DNA of 36,669 nucleotides from Candidatus Collierbacteria bacterium RIFCSPLOWO2_01_FULL_50_23 (GTDB taxonomy: Bacteria > Patescibacteriota > Microgenomatia > UBA1400 > MFAQ01): the NCBI GenBank assembly GCA_001774555.1, contig MFAI01000036.1, forward strand, positions 65,488 through 102,156. Direction: 5' to 3'. Below the pieces are notes generated by a model. That model was given only the letters and a program-made list of their open reading frames with translations, made no database searches and had not been told where the DNA came from. A program made the translations under genes and the position numbers. Shown piece by piece: positions 7,582 to 33,078 of this stretch (position 1 is the first letter of the stretch; each line of letters begins with the position of its first letter).

Positions 7582-8073
7582 ATGGCCGCAAAGGTTTGGG
7601 ATTCAACAGCAAACGGCGGAAAGGGTGATTGGGTTCCTGCGGACACTCCACGCAGGGGAACGCCACCCATCCCGGATCCTCACCGGGAACGGAGAGTACG
7701 GACGGAAATCCGCCGGGCACAGCTCACGATCGCGCTCTTCATCACCGTCGGCTTCGCCGTTCTAGCCGCGGTGGTTGCCATCATCACGGGCTTGCCGTAC
7801 GAGCGCTGGACCGCGAAAGAGTTCAACGCCACCGTCACGGAGAAGTTTCTGTGTGGTCCACAGAAAACGGTCTACTGCGTCTCTATCGTACACGACGACG
7901 GAAAGGCAGAAGTCCTCCAAAACCACGATAGCCTGTGGTGGTGGAAGTGGACCAGTACCGACTACCAGACACTCTTCCAACCGGACACGCGGTTCCACTT
8001 CAAGGTGTACGGCTGGCGCTGGCCACTGCGCTCATGGTTCCGCAACATCATTGCAGCGGAATCCATCGGCTGA
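7582..8073 (+). CDS. Hypothetical single-pass membrane protein with Trp-rich extracytoplasmic domain
   Basis: ORF of 163 aa with TM segment LTIALFITVGFAVLAAVVAIITGL, own promoter and own terminator. Confidence 0.7.
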   Translation: MAAKVWDSTANGGKGDWVPADTPRRGTPPIPDPHRERRVRTEIRRAQLTIALFITVGFAVLAAVVAIITGLPYERWTAKEFNATVTEKFLCGPQKTVYCVSIVHDDGKAEVLQNHDSLWWWKWTSTDYQTLFQPDTRFHFKVYGWRWPLRSWFRNIIAAESIG

Positions 8074-23637: not shown

Positions 23638-24208
23638 TCAAGACCACTACCTCGGTACTCTCAGGCAGAGAGTCGGCGTCTAATTTGAGTTTGTCCATGT
23701 CGCGCTTGACGACCTCAAATTTGTTGGTAGACAAAAAATGATCGACTTCACCGATTGCATCATAACCCATCAGGACGGCAAGATATGGCTCACAGGCGTC
23801 GATGAGACCCGCTCCCCCGGTCAGGGTTACCAACAAAACGTCGATTTCGGACAATTTCTGCTTCATCTTCTCGTCAGGATCGCCGACTAATGCGCCGGTG
23901 TGGGCAACCTCAACGCCGTCGCCGCTTATCCTCACCACCATCCCCTCTTTGCCGATCTCTACTCTGTCTGCGATAATACCAACACCACCGAGCTCATATT
24001 CTCCCTCTTTATCAATAACAAATGTTTTTTCTCGGTTTACTGCCCCGGAGATTTCAAACCTACCTGCCTGCCCGCCTGCATGCGCAGCTTGCGGCGTGGT
24101 ATAAATAACCACATCCGCTTTTTCTTTGGAAGAGATCGGATCAATGACCAGGGTCAAGGTCTTGGTCTTAAATTTAAAACTGTTTTTACCCAAAAATGTT
24201 ATCTCCAT
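23630..24208 (-). CDS. Metallo-beta-lactamase-fold (UlaG-like) protein lacking the canonical HxHxDH
   Basis: MEITFLGKNSFKFKTKTLTLVIDPIS..KADVVIYTTPQAAHAGG...FVIDKEGEYELGGVGI. Confidence 0.75.
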   Translation of the reverse strand: MEITFLGKNSFKFKTKTLTLVIDPISSKEKADVVIYTTPQAAHAGGQAGRFEISGAVNREKTFVIDKEGEYELGGVGIIADRVEIGKEGMVVRISGDGVEVAHTGALVGDPDEKMKQKLSEIDVLLVTLTGGAGLIDACEPYLAVLMGYDAIGEVDHFLSTNKFEVVKRDMDKLKLDADSLPESTEVVVLNG

Positions 24209-24290
24209 ACCTGCCCGCCCCTGGGGGGAGCGAGTTTATCTTAACACATGGTCCGAACGGTAGGATGTGATATAGTTTGCTTGTTCTATT

Positions 24291-24722
24291 ATGCGTAAAG
24301 AAGTCATTTTTGCAATCATCGTCGGTCTGGTCCTTGGACTCGTCATTCTCTATGGTATCCAAGTAGCCAACAAGTCAGCCAAACAGGCGGCCTTGGTACT
24401 TGCTCCCACCCCCGAAGAAACGGTCACTCAGGTCCCCACACCCACCCCCGTCTCCGGCTTGACGATCGTTTCGCCGGCCGATCATTCCGTGATTAACACC
24501 TCAATAGTAAAAATTATCGGCAAGACCGACCCAAACTCGACAGTGGCGGTCTATTCTTCCGAAGATGACGCCTTGGTCAGCGCAGACAAAGACGGCAATT
24601 TTTCCTTCGATCTAAAGCTCACCGGTGGTGAAAACGTCATCAAGGTCACCGCCCTAAAACCCGATCAATCCATCCAAGGAACCCAAATAACCGTTATTTA
24701 CACCACCGCCAAAATCAACTGA
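24291..24722 (+). CDS. Membrane-anchored extracytoplasmic protein with Ig-like/bacterial Ig domain
   Basis: N-terminal TM, Pro/Thr linker, TIVSPADHSVINTSIVKIIGKTDPNSTVAVYSSEDDALVSADKDGNFSFDLKLTGGENVIKVTA. Confidence 0.7.
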   Translation: MRKEVIFAIIVGLVLGLVILYGIQVANKSAKQAALVLAPTPEETVTQVPTPTPVSGLTIVSPADHSVINTSIVKIIGKTDPNSTVAVYSSEDDALVSADKDGNFSFDLKLTGGENVIKVTALKPDQSIQGTQITVIYTTAKIN

Positions 24723-24724
24723 TC

Positions 24725-25375
24725 ATGAAGAAACTAGCTACCTTACTGCTAACCACATATATTCTTGTGCTATCCGCCCACCCGATCTTCGCAGTTGATA
24801 GCTTGGATACCCCGGTCGGCTCAGCCAGCGCCATCAAAGAGGATATCAACAAACGCATCAAGGAAGCCATCGATAAAAACCTGAAAAATACTCAGGCAGT
24901 CCTTTCCGAAAGCAGTGATCAGATCGTTGGTTACGTCGGCATTGTCAGCGATATCAAACAGGGAGTCTTCAATCTGAACACCGACACGATTGCCCTCCAA
25001 GTCAGTCTGGGTTCGGCAACTCAAATCATCAAAGACAACCAGCCCCTAAAAACAGAGCTCATCTCTCTCAAAGATAAAGCGATCGTCATCGGCAATCTCT
25101 CCTCCCCCGATATTCTTACCGCAAAAAGAATAGTCATCATCAAGGAAATAGCTCCAAAGTCGGAAAAGAAGGTCGTCCTCTCCACCATCGTCAAGGTTGA
25201 TCTTAAGAAAAAAACCATTACTCTGAAGATAGACGACAAAGCCCTGGAAATGACTATGGGAAAACTTATCAAGTTTGATCTCGCCACCCTCAAGTTGACA
25301 CAAAAGATCTTCGGCATCATCGTCATCGATACCGCCTCCGGAGGAACCACTCTTATCCAAGGAAAAATTATCTAA
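24725..25375 (+). CDS. Secreted hypothetical protein
   Basis: Signal peptide MKKLATLLLTTYILVLSAHPIFAVDS, then repeated beta-rich segments. Confidence 0.7.
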   Translation: MKKLATLLLTTYILVLSAHPIFAVDSLDTPVGSASAIKEDINKRIKEAIDKNLKNTQAVLSESSDQIVGYVGIVSDIKQGVFNLNTDTIALQVSLGSATQIIKDNQPLKTELISLKDKAIVIGNLSSPDILTAKRIVIIKEIAPKSEKKVVLSTIVKVDLKKKTITLKIDDKALEMTMGKLIKFDLATLKLTQKIFGIIVIDTASGGTTLIQGKII

Positions 25376-25384
25376 TTTCCAAAA

Positions 25385-25429
25385 ACCACCTTGTGCCGGG
25401 GTCCTGCCCGAGCCCCGGCAAAAAGTGGT
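25385..25429. terminator. Strong hairpin, possible terminator or structured 3' end
   Basis: ACCAC...TGCCGGGG-loop-CCCCGGCA...GTGGT; no good T-run. Confidence 0.45.
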
Positions 25430-25472
25430 CTATTTGGCCCATAATTTACCTCATCCGGCCTCAAAAGTCAAT

Positions 25473-25501
25473 TTGACAACGCCCCTCTCCCCTGCTATTA
25501 T
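25473..25501 (+). promoter_or_regulatory. Promoter TTGACA-17-TATTAT with extended -10 (TGC)
   Basis: TTGACA 25473-25478, TATTAT 25496-25501, spacer 17 nt. Confidence 0.85.
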
Positions 25502-25506
25502 CGCCT

Positions 25507-25706
25507 AAAGCGTTACGAGCGGAGTCACGATCCGCAATGGGCTCGCCGAAGCGAAAGCGAAGGCGGCCACGCTTCCCGCCAAAATGCGGGACGGAAGCCA
25601 AACCGAACCAATCAGGCAGTCGATGTCGCACCTAGCGGAGTCGGCCCAAGAGTCTCGAAGAGAAATACTTCGAGGAAAGAAGATGGGACCGCGGGGGTCC
25701 TTTTTT
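25507..25706 (+). ncRNA. Probable T-box riboswitch leader (predicted tRNA-His-responsive)
   Basis: Predicted TSS begins at AAAGCGT, which can pair with ACGCTT (25569-25574). Stem III-like CTCGAAG..CTTCGAG is followed by TGGGACCGCG (T-box core UGGNACCGCG, N=G), overlapping hairpin GGACC..GGTCC + T6. hisS lies downstream. Confidence 0.7.
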
Positions 25707-25728
25707 ATTGGCCAAAACGCCATAGAGA

Positions 25729-25777
25729 GGCTCTCGTTCTTCAAAACGTTATTAGTTTTGGGGAACGGGAGCCTTTT
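25729..25777 (+). terminator. Second intrinsic terminator in the leader
   Basis: GGCTCTCGTTCTTCAAAAC-gttatta-GTTTTGGGGAACGGGAGCC followed by TTTTTT. Confidence 0.85.
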
Positions 25778-25801
25778 TTGTTCCCCGACCAATAAAAACA
25801 T

Positions 25802-26998
25802 ATGACCGAAAGACAAAACTGTAGGCCCGAAGTCAAAAAAAACGAGGCTCGGCCAAACTCGAGATATCTCATCTTGTCCGAAAATGGTTTTGGTGGGAAA
25901 AAATATCGTTTAGCGAAAAAATATCTAAAGTCATCGGGGAATACTACAGAGTCATGGGCAATCAAACGTGACGGCAACTGTTTCGTCACCCAAGTGACGA
26001 TATCAGGTGAAGCTGGCAGGCTGGATAAAATCACTACAAGAATCGGAAGTAAAAAAGTAAAAATTGCTATCTTCCAGCCAGCGAACGAGTCGGACTTCGC
26101 CTACTATCTTGAAAAAAGAAACCCGGTCAAAGACAAATTGCTATTTACCAGTCTCACTATCACCGAAGTCTCACCGGCAACGTATGCCGTTGGGACACTT
26201 AGAGAAAAGTTAAAGACTGAAACGGAGGTCAGTACTCCAACTAAAAAAATGCGGCAACTTCTGAAAGAAACCTCGTATTTACCTGTTCAGAATCTCGAAA
26301 CTATTCTTGCCAGACTCGAGGACTCCATCACCAGGAACCGACCTCTCCGCATCGGTTGTTTCGTCTGCCTCAATATGAAGTGTCTTCAATCTGGTGATAA
26401 ACCGGTTTACTTTGTTGGCCAAGAAAAAAACAGACTGGAGACCCCTAAAGTCTCCAAGCGGACGCGAGAAATTCTTTCAAAATTGGAAAATTCGGGCCTT
26501 AACTTCGCCTGGGATTTTCTGCTGGCAGATACCGATCCGCTGGATATTTACGACGAATGGCTCGGGCAACAAGAACTGGTCAAAGAAATAGGTAGGTATA
26601 AATCCAGGTTAGAGAAATCAATCGCTAGCCTATCCCCCAACACCTCAATCAAATCTTGGTCTGACGTTCAGGCTATGTTCCAAAAAAAATATCAGACAGA
26701 TTTTCAAAGGGCCTTTGAGACATGCGACCAGCTTGTAGGCACAGAATATATAGCTTCCAGTGCTAGACGCCGGCTTGCATATTTCACCGACAGGGTCGGG
26801 CTTCCCTATTCAGACGAGATCACCAAAATCTGTGAAACCACCGCCAAAAGAAATATCGCCCTCTATGCCGCTCAGGGACCGATTCTTTACGATTCATATG
26901 ATCTACTTGTAATTTCCGATCCCGATCCATCAAGACTTGGAAAGATCCAAAGCCTACTCTGTCCAAAATTACCAATCTGGTATCCCTTCCCGGGATAA
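25802..26998 (+). CDS. Unknown protein in the T-box/hisS operon (398 aa)
   Basis: Long ORF in the operon; NIALYAAQGPILYDSYDLLVISDPDPSRLGKIQSLL...PIWYPFPG. No family recognised. Confidence 0.75.
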   Translation: MTERQNCRPEVKKNEARPNSRYLILSENGFGGKKYRLAKKYLKSSGNTTESWAIKRDGNCFVTQVTISGEAGRLDKITTRIGSKKVKIAIFQPANESDFAYYLEKRNPVKDKLLFTSLTITEVSPATYAVGTLREKLKTETEVSTPTKKMRQLLKETSYLPVQNLETILARLEDSITRNRPLRIGCFVCLNMKCLQSGDKPVYFVGQEKNRLETPKVSKRTREILSKLENSGLNFAWDFLLADTDPLDIYDEWLGQQELVKEIGRYKSRLEKSIASLSPNTSIKSWSDVQAMFQKKYQTDFQRAFETCDQLVGTEYIASSARRRLAYFTDRVGLPYSDEITKICETTAKRNIALYAAQGPILYDSYDLLVISDPDPSRLGKIQSLLCPKLPIWYPFPG

Positions 26999-27004
26999 AA
27001 ACAA

Positions 27005-27721
27005 ATGACCAAAACACAGAAGTTCCTAAAAAACATTCAGGCAATATCCATCGCTCCACCGGAAAACATTATCCGCATTCTGGAGTTAATCGACAACAAT
27101 AAACCCATCACTTTTTTCAGTTGGAAAATGTTTGGGATCAAAATGACTCAGAAGGGTCTAATCGCCAACCCCAGTTTCGACACCGACGAAGCGGATAAAT
27201 ACATCATCAAAGAAAAGAATTTCATCAAGACCTTACTGAAATTAGAAATCAATTTCAAATACATCAAACTCATCCCCAACGAGCTACCCAAAGTATTCTT
27301 TGGTGTGAACCTCCCCAAAGAATCAACTAGTTTTGCGGTCAATGTCTCTCGCTACTTCAAGAAGATCTACCCCAAAACCAAAGTAATCAAATTGTCCGAG
27401 TTGCTTTCCAATCGCCCCCTCGCGTTAGTCTACCAAAAGGCGTTTGCCAAGGGACAGACCGAAAACATTGACCCAAAGAAATTTGCCAAGGAAAAACTTT
27501 CTCGGTCAACATATTACTCAGACGAACCTCTATCGAACGAAAAAGGGACAATCCTTGCCCAAAAAGCTTTCGGTCTTTTTTCCGCCGAAACCGCCATAAT
27601 TTTCAAATATATTACAAATCCTGTCTTGCTCGCGGGTGCAAGGTCAATAGATACTTACAAATACAAGTTTTCAAAATATCCCAAAGATCGACCAATATTA
27701 CCAATATTATTTGTTCTATAA
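27005..27721 (+). CDS. Unknown protein in the T-box/hisS operon (238 aa), possibly paralogous to the preceding ORF
   Basis: ORF between 25802-26998 and hisS; TAATGA coupling to hisS. Confidence 0.75.
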   Translation: MTKTQKFLKNIQAISIAPPENIIRILELIDNNKPITFFSWKMFGIKMTQKGLIANPSFDTDEADKYIIKEKNFIKTLLKLEINFKYIKLIPNELPKVFFGVNLPKESTSFAVNVSRYFKKIYPKTKVIKLSELLSNRPLALVYQKAFAKGQTENIDPKKFAKEKLSRSTYYSDEPLSNEKGTILAQKAFGLFSAETAIIFKYITNPVLLAGARSIDTYKYKFSKYPKDRPILPILFVL

Positions 27722-28968
27722 TGAAAAACATGGCCCAAAACAAAATTCAAACTCTCAAAGGCTTCCGGGACTTTCTCCCCGAGCAGGCCAAAAAAAGACA
27801 GTGGTTAACACGCAGAATTGAGGCTGTTTTTGAGCTCTGGGGCTATGACCCACTCGAAACCCCGACTCTCGAACCACTGGAGCTTTTTGCTGGTCAGATT
27901 GGTGAAGAGGAACAACTCTTCTTCAAATTCGAGGATAATGCCGGCCGTCAGGTCGCCCTCCGTTATGACCAAACCGTCCCCACTTGCCGCGTCGTCGGTC
28001 AATACGCTCAAGTGCTCCCCATGCCCTTTCGCCGCTACCAAATCCAGCCCGTCTTCCGGGCCGAAAAACCCCAAAAAGGCCGCTACCGTGAATTTACCCA
28101 GTGCGATGCGGATATCTTTGGAGTTGCCTCTCCCTTAGCCGACGCCGAGGTGATCGCCCTTTCTCTCGATATTTATCGCCGTCTTGGGTTTCCCAATGCG
28201 CTTGTCCTCGTCAATGACCGTTCGCTTCTTTCGGACCTCCCCTACAAGGCCATCGTCGCCATCGACAAACTGGAAAAAATCGGAGAAGCGGGTGTCATCA
28301 CAGAGATGATAGCCAAGGGTATCGACGAGACGACCGCCAGAGACTATCTGATCAAAGTCCGCGCCCTCACCCCGAATGAAACAATACGGATAATTTTTGA
28401 CTATCTGGACAAGTCCGGTTTTGACAGCTCTTGGTACAAATTCGAACCCACCCTGGCCCGCTCCTTTTCCTACTCAACCGGGCCCATCTGGGAAGTGAAG
28501 ATTCCGGGTTTTGATTCTGGTTCGGTTCTCGGTGGCGAACGCTACGACCAATTGGTCGAAAGGGTTTCGGGAATCAATGTTTCCGGTACCGGTTTCGGTC
28601 TTGGCTTTGATCGAACTCTGGAGGCAGCAGAACAGTTAGGGCTGATCCCCAGTTTCAAAACAGGCAGCCAAGTACTGATTTGTACCCTAGGCAAAGACAA
28701 CCTGAATCTCTCCCTGATACTGACCAGCGCCCTGCGCGATAATGGCGGCGTGAACACGGAAATCTACCCCGATCCGGAGGCAAAACTGGACAAGCAGTTA
28801 AAATACGCCAACAAGAAAGGCATCCCCTTCGTCGCTATCCTCGGCGAAAACGAAATCAAAAACCAGACCGTGACGGTGAAAAATATGGCCTCGGGGGAAC
28901 AAACAAGTTTGCCATTAGATAAGCCGGATGAACTCGCTGCCTATGTCCAAACACCACCTGTCCAATAA
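27721..28968 (+). CDS. hisS: Histidyl-tRNA synthetase
   Basis: GFRDFLPEQAKKRQWL, VALRYDQTVPTCRVV, PFRRYQIQPVFRAEKPQKGRYREFTQCDADIFG, GTGFGLGFDRTLEA. Confidence 0.96.
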   Translation: MKNMAQNKIQTLKGFRDFLPEQAKKRQWLTRRIEAVFELWGYDPLETPTLEPLELFAGQIGEEEQLFFKFEDNAGRQVALRYDQTVPTCRVVGQYAQVLPMPFRRYQIQPVFRAEKPQKGRYREFTQCDADIFGVASPLADAEVIALSLDIYRRLGFPNALVLVNDRSLLSDLPYKAIVAIDKLEKIGEAGVITEMIAKGIDETTARDYLIKVRALTPNETIRIIFDYLDKSGFDSSWYKFEPTLARSFSYSTGPIWEVKIPGFDSGSVLGGERYDQLVERVSGINVSGTGFGLGFDRTLEAAEQLGLIPSFKTGSQVLICTLGKDNLNLSLILTSALRDNGGVNTEIYPDPEAKLDKQLKYANKKGIPFVAILGENEIKNQTVTVKNMASGEQTSLPLDKPDELAAYVQTPPVQ

Positions 28969-29872
28969 TCGGTCAAAAGCCTATGCCCTTCTCCTCATAA
29001 ACACGATTTTATGGGGTCTATCTCCCCCGATCATCAAGGTGGCCCTAAATTTCGTCACCACCAATCAATTCCTCTTGGGACGCTATCTGCTTGCCAGTTT
29101 GATCTTCCTTCCCCTTTATTTCATCTTCCAAAACAAAGGTATCAAGCAGCTCCGCCAGGGAAACTGGCCCCTGCTTATCTTCCTAGCTCTGCTTGGCACC
29201 CCACTGACTTTGATTCCTCTTTACGAAGGCCTAAGGCTGACCAGTTCGATCGAGGCATCGATCCTCACTGCCACCGGTCCGCTCCTGGTAATTCTCGGCG
29301 GCCGTATATTTCTGAAAGAAAAGATCAGTCGAAATGAAGAAGTCGGCCTGATCATCGCCATTTTCGGCACTCTACTTCTTGCTTTTGAACCCATCTTTAA
29401 TAACGGTTCGGGAATAAAGTTCTCTCTGATCGGGAACCTGCTTATCTTGGGCAGTAACCTAATTTGGACCGCCTTCCTGCTTTTGGTCAAGAAACTCAAG
29501 ACCGACGCCAGTCAGATCAGTTTGGTCAGCTATCTCGTAAGTATCCCGGTTTTTGCCCTCCTGGTATTCTTTACACCTGTCTCAGTCGTGGCCAGGACCA
29601 ATATCGCCGCCCCTCTTGCCCTAATGGGTATCGTTTATATGGCCATTTTTGGTTCGGTGATCGCCTTCTGGGCCTACACCAAGGGACAGGAATACATCAA
29701 GGCCGGTGAGGCGGCAATCTTTACCTATCTCCAGCCACTCATCACTTTTCCCCTCGCCTATTTCTGGCTTGGCGAGACCCTTTCCGGCTCCAGCCTGCTG
29801 GCCTGCCTCCTGATCGCCACCGGTGTCTACTTCTCCGAATACCACGGCAAATCAAAATCGGCTATAATCTGA
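28943..29872 (+). CDS. EamA/DMT-family transporter
   Basis: 10-TM ORF with duplicated EamA pattern (LLINTILWGLSPPIIKVAL; SVIAFWAYTKGQEYIKAGEAAIFTYLQPLITFPLAYFWLGETL). Start at MSKHH. Confidence 0.88.
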   Translation: MSKHHLSNNRSKAYALLLINTILWGLSPPIIKVALNFVTTNQFLLGRYLLASLIFLPLYFIFQNKGIKQLRQGNWPLLIFLALLGTPLTLIPLYEGLRLTSSIEASILTATGPLLVILGGRIFLKEKISRNEEVGLIIAIFGTLLLAFEPIFNNGSGIKFSLIGNLLILGSNLIWTAFLLLVKKLKTDASQISLVSYLVSIPVFALLVFFTPVSVVARTNIAAPLALMGIVYMAIFGSVIAFWAYTKGQEYIKAGEAAIFTYLQPLITFPLAYFWLGETLSGSSLLACLLIATGVYFSEYHGKSKSAII

Positions 29873-29877
29873 AAACG

Positions 29878-30369
29878 ATGCCAAAGAGAAACGAGGCAAT
29901 TAACCACACCGACGTCCTTACGGAAGTCAGACAGTTCCTTGAGCCGGGTTTTACCTCTTTTGTTCTGCCCCCATTCGAACAAATCGACAACCTGTATCGC
30001 TATGAAACCTGGACCACCGAATACCAATGGGGAGACAGACCAGACACAATCGTTTATCGCATCGTTCACAAAAACCACGATATTTTTTTTCTCATTCTTC
30101 ACCCAAAGGGATTTAATCAGCGGAAAGAAAACCGGTTTCCCGATTTGGCACTGATCATCCTCAATAAGAGAAGTGACCTGACTATTACCGATCCAGCCAC
30201 CGGCAAGGCCCTCGAGATCCTCAGTCTCTCTGCCACAGACGGCAATGGGTCACCCACCCGGCCCCACCTCTTCGGATTCGATTACCGAATTGATCTTGCC
30301 GAGCTTATCTTATACAACCAAACCCATGGTCAACGCACGAACCAAAAGAGTCTAAGCCCGGATCAATAG
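29878..30369 (+). CDS. Hypothetical protein
   Basis: 163-aa ORF closely following the EamA gene. Confidence 0.55.
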   Translation: MPKRNEAINHTDVLTEVRQFLEPGFTSFVLPPFEQIDNLYRYETWTTEYQWGDRPDTIVYRIVHKNHDIFFLILHPKGFNQRKENRFPDLALIILNKRSDLTITDPATGKALEILSLSATDGNGSPTRPHLFGFDYRIDLAELILYNQTHGQRTNQKSLSPDQ

Positions 30370-30389
30370 ATTTAGCCTCGACTTTGTGG

Positions 30390-30395
30390 TACAAT
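30390..30395 (+). promoter_or_regulatory. Extended -10 (TGGTACAAT) for rpmE
   Basis: TGnTACAAT ending 10 nt before the rpmE ATG. Confidence 0.5.
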
Positions 30396-30405
30396 AAGCC
30401 TCTGT

Positions 30406-30708
30406 ATGAAAGCCAAATTGCATCCCGACTACCAGCAGACCACCATTACCTGCGCTTGTGGCAACTCTTTCACCACCGGTTCAACCGTCAAGGATCTCAG
30501 GGTAGACATTTGTTTCAAGTGTCATCCTTTTTACACCGGAGAGCACAGGTTCGTCGACACCCTTGGTCGCGTCGACAAGTTTATGGCCAGACGCCAAGCT
30601 GCTGCAGCCATGCCAAAATCCACCAAGAAAGCCAAAAAGGGCCAAGCAGAAATGAAACAAAAAGCCCTAACCCTGAAGGAAATGCTCACCGTGACCAAAA
30701 CTGCCTAG
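30406..30708 (+). CDS. rpmE: 50S ribosomal protein L31
   Basis: [59 protein letters not shown]. Confidence 0.95.
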
Positions 30709-30766
30709 TCATTCCGGGCCTGACCCGGAATCTATATAAATAGATTCCCGCCTTCGCGGGAATGAC
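30708..30766. repeat. Composite palindromic (REP/MITE-like) repeat
   Basis: GTCATTCC GGGCCTGACCC GGAATCTA tataaa TAGATTCC CGCCTTCGCG GGAATGAC: ends and internal arms pair in cruciform fashion. Confidence 0.88.
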
Positions 30767-30777
30767 ATAATAAATTC

Positions 30778-31746
30778 ATGGATTACCTTTCCAACCAAAT
30801 TAACGAGCTTAAAGAAAAAATCGAGACGAACGAGAAGCTTCTCTCTGACCCCGTTCTGGGTCCACTGGCCACTGAAGAGAACAAAAGCCTACAAGAACAA
30901 CTTCAGGCGCTTGAGTCCGCCGGAAGAAGCGCCCAGGAGACGGACGGAGATGGAACGGACCCGTCCTATTCCCCTGCCACGATCGAAATTCGAGCCGCCG
31001 CCGGAGGTGATGAGGCCCAGATCTTTGCCAATGACCTGACCCGGATGTACATCCGTTTTGCCACAAATCAGGGTTTCAAAGTTGACCTGATCGACGAGAA
31101 TATTATCCGGATTCACATCGGTAAAAATAACTCCTGGGGACACGGCGCCTATGAAACTTTTTCGGTCGAGTCTGGTGTCCATCGTGTCCAACGCGTTCCG
31201 GAAACCGAGTCTGCCGGCCGAATTCACACCAGCACTGCCACAGTCGCCGTTTTGCCGATAATTCCTCCAAAAGCCGTCGAGGTTAAAGAAGCGGACCTGG
31301 AGTGGCAATTCACCACCGCCGGTGGCCCTGGTGGCCAAAACGTCAACAAGGTCAATACCGCGGTCAGACTGACCCACAAACCCACCGGTATCGTCGTCGC
31401 CGTCCGCGAGGAACGTTACCAGGCAAGAAACAAAGAAATCGCCCTCGAGATACTCCGGAGTAAACTCTGGGAGCGCGAAGAACAGCAACGACTAAGCAAA
31501 GTCGAGTCCGGACGGGCCGCCGCTGTTGGCCGCGGCATGCGTTCCGAAAAAATCAAGACCTACAACTTTCCCCAGAATCGCCTCACCGACCACCGTCTGA
31601 CCAAAAACTGGTATTCTCTCAAAGAAATCATTGAGGGTGACCTTTCTGACGTTCTAACATATACCCTCGAGCACCTCGGCCTGCCCGCAGATGCCACGGC
31701 GTTGCAGGCGGGCAAAGACAAAGTACCTGAAGAAGCAAGGGAATAA
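30778..31746 (+). CDS. prfA: Peptide chain release factor 1
   Basis: [28 protein letters not shown] (PxT motif = PET), [20 protein letters not shown] (GGQ). Confidence 0.94.
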
Positions 31747-31780
31747 CAGAGGGCGCAGCAAAGCAAATTTTACGCGCGCA

Positions 31781-31834
31781 GCGAAACCGTGTCCTGTATT
31801 CAGGAACCGGGAGTCGAGCACGGAAAAATTTCGC
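31781..31834. repeat. Imperfect inverted repeat between convergent prfA and ctpA
   Basis: GCGAAA-CCGTG-TCCTG-tatt-CAGGA...CACGG...TTTCGC. Confidence 0.65.
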
Positions 31835-31854
31835 TTGTGAGCCCCGGGAAAACA

Positions 31855-33078
31855 TTATTTCGCCGCGGTGATCACTCCATTCAATACCTCAACCGCGCGA
31901 TCGAGCTGATTATCCTTCTCCGGATTCTTTTCATCGGCCACATACTCGATCAACACATCCGGCTCGATCCCCTCTTTGTGAATATTTTTCCCAGAGGGCA
32001 GGTTCCACTTGGCGATCGTAATGTGAATACCGGCGCCGCCGGGCAGGTCCTCCACTTCCTGGACCGTGCCTTTGCCGAAAGTCTTTTCACCCACCAATTT
32101 CACCCCCAGTCTTTCCTTGAGCGCACCCGAAAGGATCTCCGCCGCCGAGGCCGAGCCCTTGTTCACCAGGACAACTAGCGGCACTCCAATCAGTCTACCG
32201 GGTCGGTCAACCCCAAAGCTCTCGGTCTGATCAACTCCCTGTTGCTGGACGATAGTTCCGGAAGTAATAAACTCACTCCCCAAATCGATCGCTCTTTGCA
32301 AATACCCGCCTGGGTTATTACGTAGGTCCAGAACTATCCCCGAACCTTTCTTGTTGATATACTCAGAAACCGCCTTGTCCCACTCATCCAAAGTTTTGTC
32401 CCCAAACCGATTGACTTTTATCTGGGCAATTTTCTTATCCTTCCCCACCCAAGTCAGCTCTACCGATGGAACATTAATAGTGTCGCGAACCAAGGTGATC
32501 TCTTTCGACTTGGCGTCTTTTTCATGATAAATCGTCAGGGTAACGCTCGTCCCCTTCTTGCCGCGAATATAGCCCACCGCATCCATCAGATTGATACCGT
32601 TGGTGTCCTTATCAACCTCGTTAGCCTCATCCTTGATATGAAGAATTAGATCCCCGGCCCTGATGCCGGCCCGCTCGGCCGGATTTCCGGGCAGCGGCGT
32701 CATTACCGCCAAAGTTTTGTCAATAAATCCGAGCTGAATCCCAACCCCGGAAAACTCACCCGAGAGGTCTTCCTTGGTCCTTTTGTTCTCCGCAGGAGGG
32801 AAAAACGAGGTGTAGGGATCATCCAGGGCGGCAGTCATCCCCTCGATCGCCCCGAAGACCATTTTCTTCGGATCCAAGTCTTTCTTATCCAAGTAGTTAT
32901 TCTCCAGTCTACTCCAAACATCCCAGAATAGAGTCAAGTCCGCCTTCGGAGTGCCATCGGCGGCGATACCTTGTGCCAAACCGGCTTTCTTCCCAAAAGA
33001 ATACGAAACCAAAGAAGAAACCGTCACCAAGAGGATACAAATCACCACAAAACGGATCCTGGCTAAAAACATCATCAT
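31855..33078 (-). CDS. ctpA: S41-family carboxy-terminal processing peptidase
   Basis: PDZ region (IGVQLGFIDKTLAVMTPLPGNPAERAGIRAGDLILHI) and LVVLVNKGSASAAEILSGALKERLGVKLVGEKTFGKGTVQ. Confidence 0.94.
   Translation of the reverse strand: MMMFLARIRFVVICILLVTVSSLVSYSFGKKAGLAQGIAADGTPKADLTLFWDVWSRLENNYLDKKDLDPKKMVFGAIEGMTAALDDPYTSFFPPAENKRTKEDLSGEFSGVGIQLGFIDKTLAVMTPLPGNPAERAGIRAGDLILHIKDEANEVDKDTNGINLMDAVGYIRGKKGTSVTLTIYHEKDAKSKEITLVRDTINVPSVELTWVGKDKKIAQIKVNRFGDKTLDEWDKAVSEYINKKGSGIVLDLRNNPGGYLQRAIDLGSEFITSGTIVQQQGVDQTESFGVDRPGRLIGVPLVVLVNKGSASAAEILSGALKERLGVKLVGEKTFGKGTVQEVEDLPGGAGIHITIAKWNLPSGKNIHKEGIEPDVLIEYVADEKNPEKDNQLDRAVEVLNGVITAAK

Follow-up and report, generated by a model that had tools for sequence, protein, structure and literature searches.

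The question raised by this locus is whether the structured leader in front of a hisS-containing gene cluster, found in a 36,669-nucleotide stretch of Candidatus Collierbacteria DNA (the window), is a tRNA-sensing regulatory element, and, if so, which tRNA it reads and how it does so with hardly any Stem I. Our reading, held with high confidence, is that the leader is a T-box riboswitch acting by transcription attenuation, with tRNA-His as its specific ligand. Sequence comparison shows a conserved structure, a specifier, a discriminator match, mutually exclusive alternatives and a fitting gene context; that the leader binds tRNA, responds to charging, adopts a kissing-loop geometry and terminates transcription is inferred.

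The elements of the locus are collected in Table 1. An earlier, sequence-only reading had placed a strong promoter upstream of the leader, and its elements are indeed found there, with the -35 box at 25473-25478, the -10 box at 25496-25501, a spacer of 17 nt and an upstream TG. By consensus match (11/12 positions), this is the best promoter-like site within 24200-31900. The leader RNA folds better than its shuffled versions (z = -2.9). The same reading described an operon ending in hisS; this gene is present, but it is not the last one, as the EamA transporter gene that comes after it shares 41 nt with its 3' end.

Table 1. Predicted leader elements and genes of the cluster, in window coordinates.
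Feature	Position	Strand	Remarks
Sigma-70-type promoter, extended -10	25473..25501	+	TTGACA-17-TATTAT with TG, 11/12 matches; consensus match only
Whole leader, Stem I base to second terminator	25508..25780	+	conserved in homologues
P1 (Stem I base), AAGCG / CGCUU	25508..25512 with 25570..25574	+	covariation
Specifier hairpin, stem GCGGA/UCCGC, 7-nt loop GUCACGA	25519..25535	+	stem covaries, loop almost invariant
Specifier codon CAC (His)	25526..25528	+	in all His-type relatives; CGC, UGC, UGG in leaders of other specificity
GC-rich inserted hairpin, after the specifier hairpin and before the P1 3' strand	25538..25567	+	missing in most homologues
Stem II-position hairpin CCCGC-CAAAAU-GCGGG	25575..25590	+	5/5 pairs with changes on both sides
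Stem IIA/B-type pseudoknot	25591..25617	+	both helices covary
P6, extra hairpin with AUGU/GAGU internal loop	25619..25645	+	covaries
Purine string AAGAG and Stem III UCUCGAAG/CUUCGAGG	25648..25675	+	helix varies in sequence
Antiterminator 5' side: A1 GAAGA, bulge UGGGACC (25684-25690), A2 GCGGGGG	25679..25697	+	A1 covaries
Terminator 1, with the T-box as its 5' arm	25685..25706	+	hairpin then T6; -11.8 kcal/mol alone
Terminator 2, 5' arm holding the antiterminator 3' side	25728..25780	+	20-pair stem and U run; -36.0 kcal/mol alone
Antiterminator 3' side: A2 CUCUCGU, A1 UCUUC	25731..25742	+	conserved pairing
ORF, 398 aa	25802..26998	+	predicted fold like cyclodipeptide synthase / class Ic aminoacyl-tRNA synthetase; tentative
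ORF, 238 aa	27005..27721	+	possibly same fold as the 398-aa ORF
hisS, histidine--tRNA ligase	27721..28968	+	TIGR00442, 346 bits vs cut-off 287
EamA-family transporter, overlapping the hisS end	28928..29872	+	PF00892

The T-box core on which the proposal was originally based, TGGGACCGCG, was located at 25684-25693 and, as had been claimed, overlaps a hairpin, forming the 5' arm of a stem followed by T6. Taken alone, the core motif is weak evidence, since 0.21 exact occurrences of TGGNACCGCG are expected per window from shuffling and two were found. The second copy lies within an ORF, in antisense orientation (minus strand, 7988-7997), and is probably due to chance. The case for the leader rests on conservation instead. 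When 56 related genomes were searched at the DNA level, five others of the order proved to have homologous sequence, with 74-81% identity over the longest stretches and two copies in one genome. In GTDB genomes, 30 exact matches to the pattern were obtained, and the candidate-phylum names, where the records carry one, are mostly Daviesbacteria, Gottesmanbacteria, Woesebacteria, Levybacteria, Amesbacteria, Shapirobacteria and Blackburnbacteria, all of them Microgenomates lineages. The covariance model R1 gave matches in 22 of the 95 genomes searched in the order, in 84 of 289 from the class and in 21 of a phylum-wide sample of 341; its weaker matches carry other codons in the same specifier hairpin. 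The relatives compared are not independent samples.

Covariation among homologous leaders, named in the sequence-only reading as a check, is borne out by an alignment of 21 homologues (alignment A1), where 88.3% of the cells are paired and 28 of the 38 pairs have changed on both sides. The covariation score of 0.452 compares with 0.162 for shuffles, and no slid control exceeds 0.212. The structure was drawn from one homologue and then counted on this same alignment, which favours the structure, a bias that the slid controls only partly remove. The elements follow one another in the order P1, 5-bp hairpin, Stem II-position hairpin, H-type pseudoknot, P6, Stem III and T-box. P1 covaries in the relatives as AGC/GCU, UCC/GGA, AAC/GUU and GGC/GCU.

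Stem I had been suspected to be short or atypical, and it proves to be both: a 5-bp hairpin holds the specifier in its terminal loop of 7 nt, without any long Stem I. This reduction is the main novelty of the leader. No internal-loop specifier within a long Stem I was found, the codon being closed in its terminal loop by covarying pairs, and the elbow-binding elements of a distal Stem I are absent, with no sequence above the 5-bp hairpin. Among 72 leaders with His-, Arg- or Cys-form loops, the specifier hairpin occurs as 33 distinct stem-loop-stem sequences, and the five standard stem pairs are present in 52. The two CAC triplets considered earlier as specifiers both exist, and the choice between them can now be made, as the one at 25526-25528 is invariant in the 21 aligned homologues. 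The triplet at 25568-25570 was rejected, because it is not conserved and adjoins the insertion that most relatives lack; a few homologues carry other insertions at that site.

At the Stem I base, where a K-turn (GA motif) would lie, several relatives retain UGA...GGAGC, which is not clearly present in the window. The S-turn sequence of Stem II is absent, as judged by sequence only, and a short hairpin with an A-rich loop is found instead. The pseudoknot pairs CGG 25592-25594 with CCG 25603-25605, and GCC 25597-25599 with GGC 25615-25617. P6 also occurs in the long-Stem-I T-boxes L075 and L077, at an RF00230 insertion. The RRRNG-Stem III-AA motif of T-boxes (PMC7778990) is met by AAGAG at 25648-25652, Stem III and a following AA.

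The 3' strand of the antiterminator lies about 35 nt downstream of the UGGGACC bulge. RNA 25676-25752 is predicted to fold as the antiterminator, with UGGGACC as a bulge, at -25.4 kcal/mol; this folding refers to a transcript ending after the antiterminator 3' strand. Helix A1 occurs in three pair variants, which indicate that it is conserved through compensatory changes: the window shares GAAGA/UCUUC with L005, L006 has AGAGA/UCUCU, and most relatives have AAGGA/UCCUU. Because it uses the 5' arms of both terminators, a single antiterminator excludes the two of them. In five leaders of the Arg and Trp types (L091, L093, L095, L174, and L184), a further intrinsic terminator follows P6 and precedes the T-box, apparently within the Stem III loop, so that transcription may be checked twice.

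According to the proposed mechanism, the hairpin, which resembles an anticodon arm, would display CAC in its 7-nt loop for pairing with the GUG anticodon of tRNA-His. If this tRNA were uncharged, its CCCA end (C73) would pair with the UGGG of the bulge and stabilise the antiterminator, whose helices A1 and A2 would occupy the 5' arms of both terminators, allowing the polymerase to enter the cluster of two ORFs, hisS and the EamA gene. With charged tRNA-His, the terminators would form.

From the G at the variable position of the bulge, the sequence-only reading had predicted a C73 discriminator, and of the tRNAs of this genome that were checked, tRNA-His(GTG) alone has C73; the anticodon GTG and C73 that it was expected to have are both present. 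The tRNA-His genes found have likewise anticodon GTG and C73. Specifier and variable base were further compared across SPECIFICITIES, leaders of several codons. The variable base is G in 38 of 38 CAC leaders, U in 14 of 14 CCN (Pro) leaders and C in 16 of 17 UGG (Trp) leaders, while CGC (Arg) leaders are divided between UGGU (11) and UGGC (6). Altogether, 79 of 86 leaders carry the base most frequent in their codon group, whereas 2000 shuffles reached 40 on average and never more than 49. In seven of seven cases, the division among the Arg leaders corresponds to the discriminator that the tRNA-Arg(GCG) of the respective genome carries, with G73 where the variable base is C (G577, G515, G516, and G532) and A73 where it is U (G036, G530, and G373); these tRNA genes were located by DNA queries. 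In G532, the match is with the isoacceptor reading CGC, since the other tRNA-Arg found (TCT) has A73. Reading the CGC loops, some with UGGC, as Ser UCG was discarded in view of their genes (argH, argF, and argG) and of the tRNA-Arg(GCG) with G73 in those genomes. Two Trp leaders, L173 and L184, are exceptions, having UGGC and yet an adjacent tRNA-Trp gene with A73; L182 has UGGU with A73.

The downstream genes fit the codons as well: argH and ornithine carbamoyltransferase for Arg, trpS and trpG for Trp, and proS and proB for Pro. The list extends to Cys (one leader, L143, UGC with UGGA, cysteine-synthase-family gene), Ser (UCC with UGGC, serS) and Asn (AAC, with a nondiscriminating aspartyl-tRNA synthetase, aspS). 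Regarding the His-type leaders, 45 of 49 are followed by His-linked genes, the counts being 26 for tRNA-His, 21 for hisG, 15 for hisD, 13 for hisS, five for an M20 peptidase and two for a DapF-like gene. One of the other four (L140) also leads to hisS, and in L002 a histidine ammonia-lyase comes after the leader. Pfam confirmed HisG, HisD, histidyl-tRNA synthetase and the aromatic amino acid lyase on examples.

In 26 of the 49 His-type loci (such as L079, L104, and L117), the leader directly precedes the gene of the very tRNA to be sensed, as also happens in L097 and L174 (Trp) and L091 (Arg); in such loci, the ligand may be under the control of the switch itself. A recognisable UGGN motif is missing in 11 of the 49 His-type leaders. 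Six His leaders (L138, L139, L144, L148, L149, and L150) and one Asn leader (L175) have no recognisable UGGN antiterminator and a single intrinsic terminator; these UGGN-less leaders retain the specifier hairpin and the pseudoknot, and precede hisS, tRNA-His or a synthetase gene.

Other explanations of the same sequence have to be weighed. The strong promoter and the complete terminator 1 would also suit a separate small RNA ending there, whose T-box likeness would be incidental, all the more as some homologues have no recognisable His genes just downstream. Such an RNA is nevertheless hard to reconcile with the maintenance, by compensatory changes, of the second hairpin and of the pairing with the UGGGACC flanks, with the His genes found downstream in 45 of 49 cases, or with a loop codon that co-varies with the T-box base and the gene in other leaders, and is considered very improbable. 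Ordinary attenuation through a translated, His-rich leader peptide would also suit the tandem terminators and alternative structures seen before this His-related operon, and a 73-codon ORF does start at 25584. However, no run of His codons was seen in the leader, and what is conserved, with compensatory changes, are RNA helices, so that this explanation is practically discounted.

It is also conceivable that the specifier hairpin binds His-tRNA but ignores charging, the total tRNA-His being what is measured. The six His leaders mentioned above that have lost the UGGN antiterminator and keep a single terminator point in this direction, but the window and 38 relatives retain UGGG, and the variable base of the Arg leaders tracks the discriminator base; for this leader, a charging-blind sensor is given very little credence. 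The T-box riboswitch responding to uncharged tRNA-His remains the preferred reading.

The function of the cluster is less clear. No match to Pfam or NCBIfam was obtained for the 398-aa ORF (ORF1), whose structure model has a pLDDT of 72.6 and a Foldseek E of about 2e-4, and the same searches assigned no family to the 238-aa ORF (ORF2), whose model is weak (pLDDT 60.1). Their predicted folds resemble cyclodipeptide synthases, isonitrile synthases of the PvcA type and class Ic synthetases. The order His leader-ORF1-ORF2-hisS recurs in G402 (L140, 574-2392; window, 25802-27721), and ORF2 is present in just two of the 289 genomes of the class. From these low-confidence models of two sequences, it may be speculated that the cluster employs His-tRNA in making a small molecule, which the EamA protein would export.

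Neither RF00230 nor the whole of Rfam matched the window or the region 25300-25900, even at E=10. The absence of an RF00230 match had been named in advance as a refutation, but it is not a valid one, because most of the weight of that model lies on the Stem I missing here. The family is not rare in these bacteria, contrary to the expectation that a T-box in a CPR-like genome would be notable: among 294 genomes sampled from the phylum, 97 have RF00230 matches at E<=0.001. Only nine of them are over the cut-off, and at its curated cut-off the model misses most of these elements; L269, L275 and L276 sit on sub-threshold RF00230 matches. Of a sample of 20 RF00230 matches, about 120-185 nt long and almost all sub-threshold, many carry the codon in a short terminal loop (AUC-ileS, GAC-aspS, AGC-serS, GGC-glyS with UGGA, GUC-valS, and a proline codon with proS). 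These leaders were read by eye, which makes the phylum-wide claim less firm than the His result. Two His-type leaders with a terminal-loop codon, L269 and L270 (G272 and G334), come from outside the class of the window, the former before a hisG-like gene.

No report of T-boxes in CPR, Patescibacteria or Microgenomates was found in the open-licence literature, and prior work elsewhere is not excluded; a stripped-down T-box form seems to be common across the Candidate Phyla Radiation and apparently undescribed. A broader proposal is that this is a distinct, CPR-wide architecture with a single-hairpin Stem I and a terminal-loop codon, kissing the anticodon and acting on transcription without elbow contacts, which would serve at least a dozen amino acids, control tRNA genes too and, in some members without a T-box, sense by the anticodon alone. 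On this proposal, the evidence is evenly poised.

According to reviews, T-boxes that act on transcription as a rule require a long Stem I, which grips the tRNA elbow for fast enough binding, and the ultrashort ones act on translation (PMC7583486). Terminator-bearing leaders with only a 17-nt codon hairpin, and with their code intact across genomes, contrast with that requirement (PMC7583486) and make the minimal RNA for co-transcriptional tRNA recognition directly testable. In addition, uncultured CPR bacteria gain a readable amino-acid regulon, as codon and variable base predict the substrate of nearby unknown genes, and a source of small tRNA-responsive switches becomes available. The TBDB combined RF00230 with a class II model for Actinobacteria (PMC7778990).

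The transcriptional T-boxes of RF00230 share with the window the Stem I base, the IIA/B-type pseudoknot, the purine-flanked Stem III, the UGGNACC bulge between A1 and A2, the choice between terminator and antiterminator, the pairing of N with the discriminator, and amino-acid genes as targets. By contrast, nearly the whole of their Stem I, with specifier internal loop, AG bulge and elbow-binding distal loops, is replaced in the window by one 17-nt hairpin, its Stem II has no S-turn sequence, and it holds the extra P6 and a second terminator. Long members aligned to RF00230 have the Stem I base and the downstream half in common. In other CPR classes, long-Stem-I His T-boxes (L273, L278, and L279, as well as L283, before tRNA-His) have their CAC where it is usual, following GAA, and share the downstream half of the window leader; the simplest reading, for which no tree is available, is that the short form derives from the long one through loss of most of Stem I. 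The specifier hairpin is also similar to a tRNA anticodon stem-loop, with its 5-bp stem, its 7-nt loop, a U before the triplet and a purine after it (G-U-CAC-G-A), a likeness of sequence and predicted pairing only, in an element that belongs to an mRNA leader. The ultrashort-Stem-I T-boxes of Actinobacteria keep their specifier in an internal loop. Like the window leader, they are devoid of the elbow-binding distal Stem I, but they act on translation (PMC7583486), whereas the leader described here uses intrinsic terminators.
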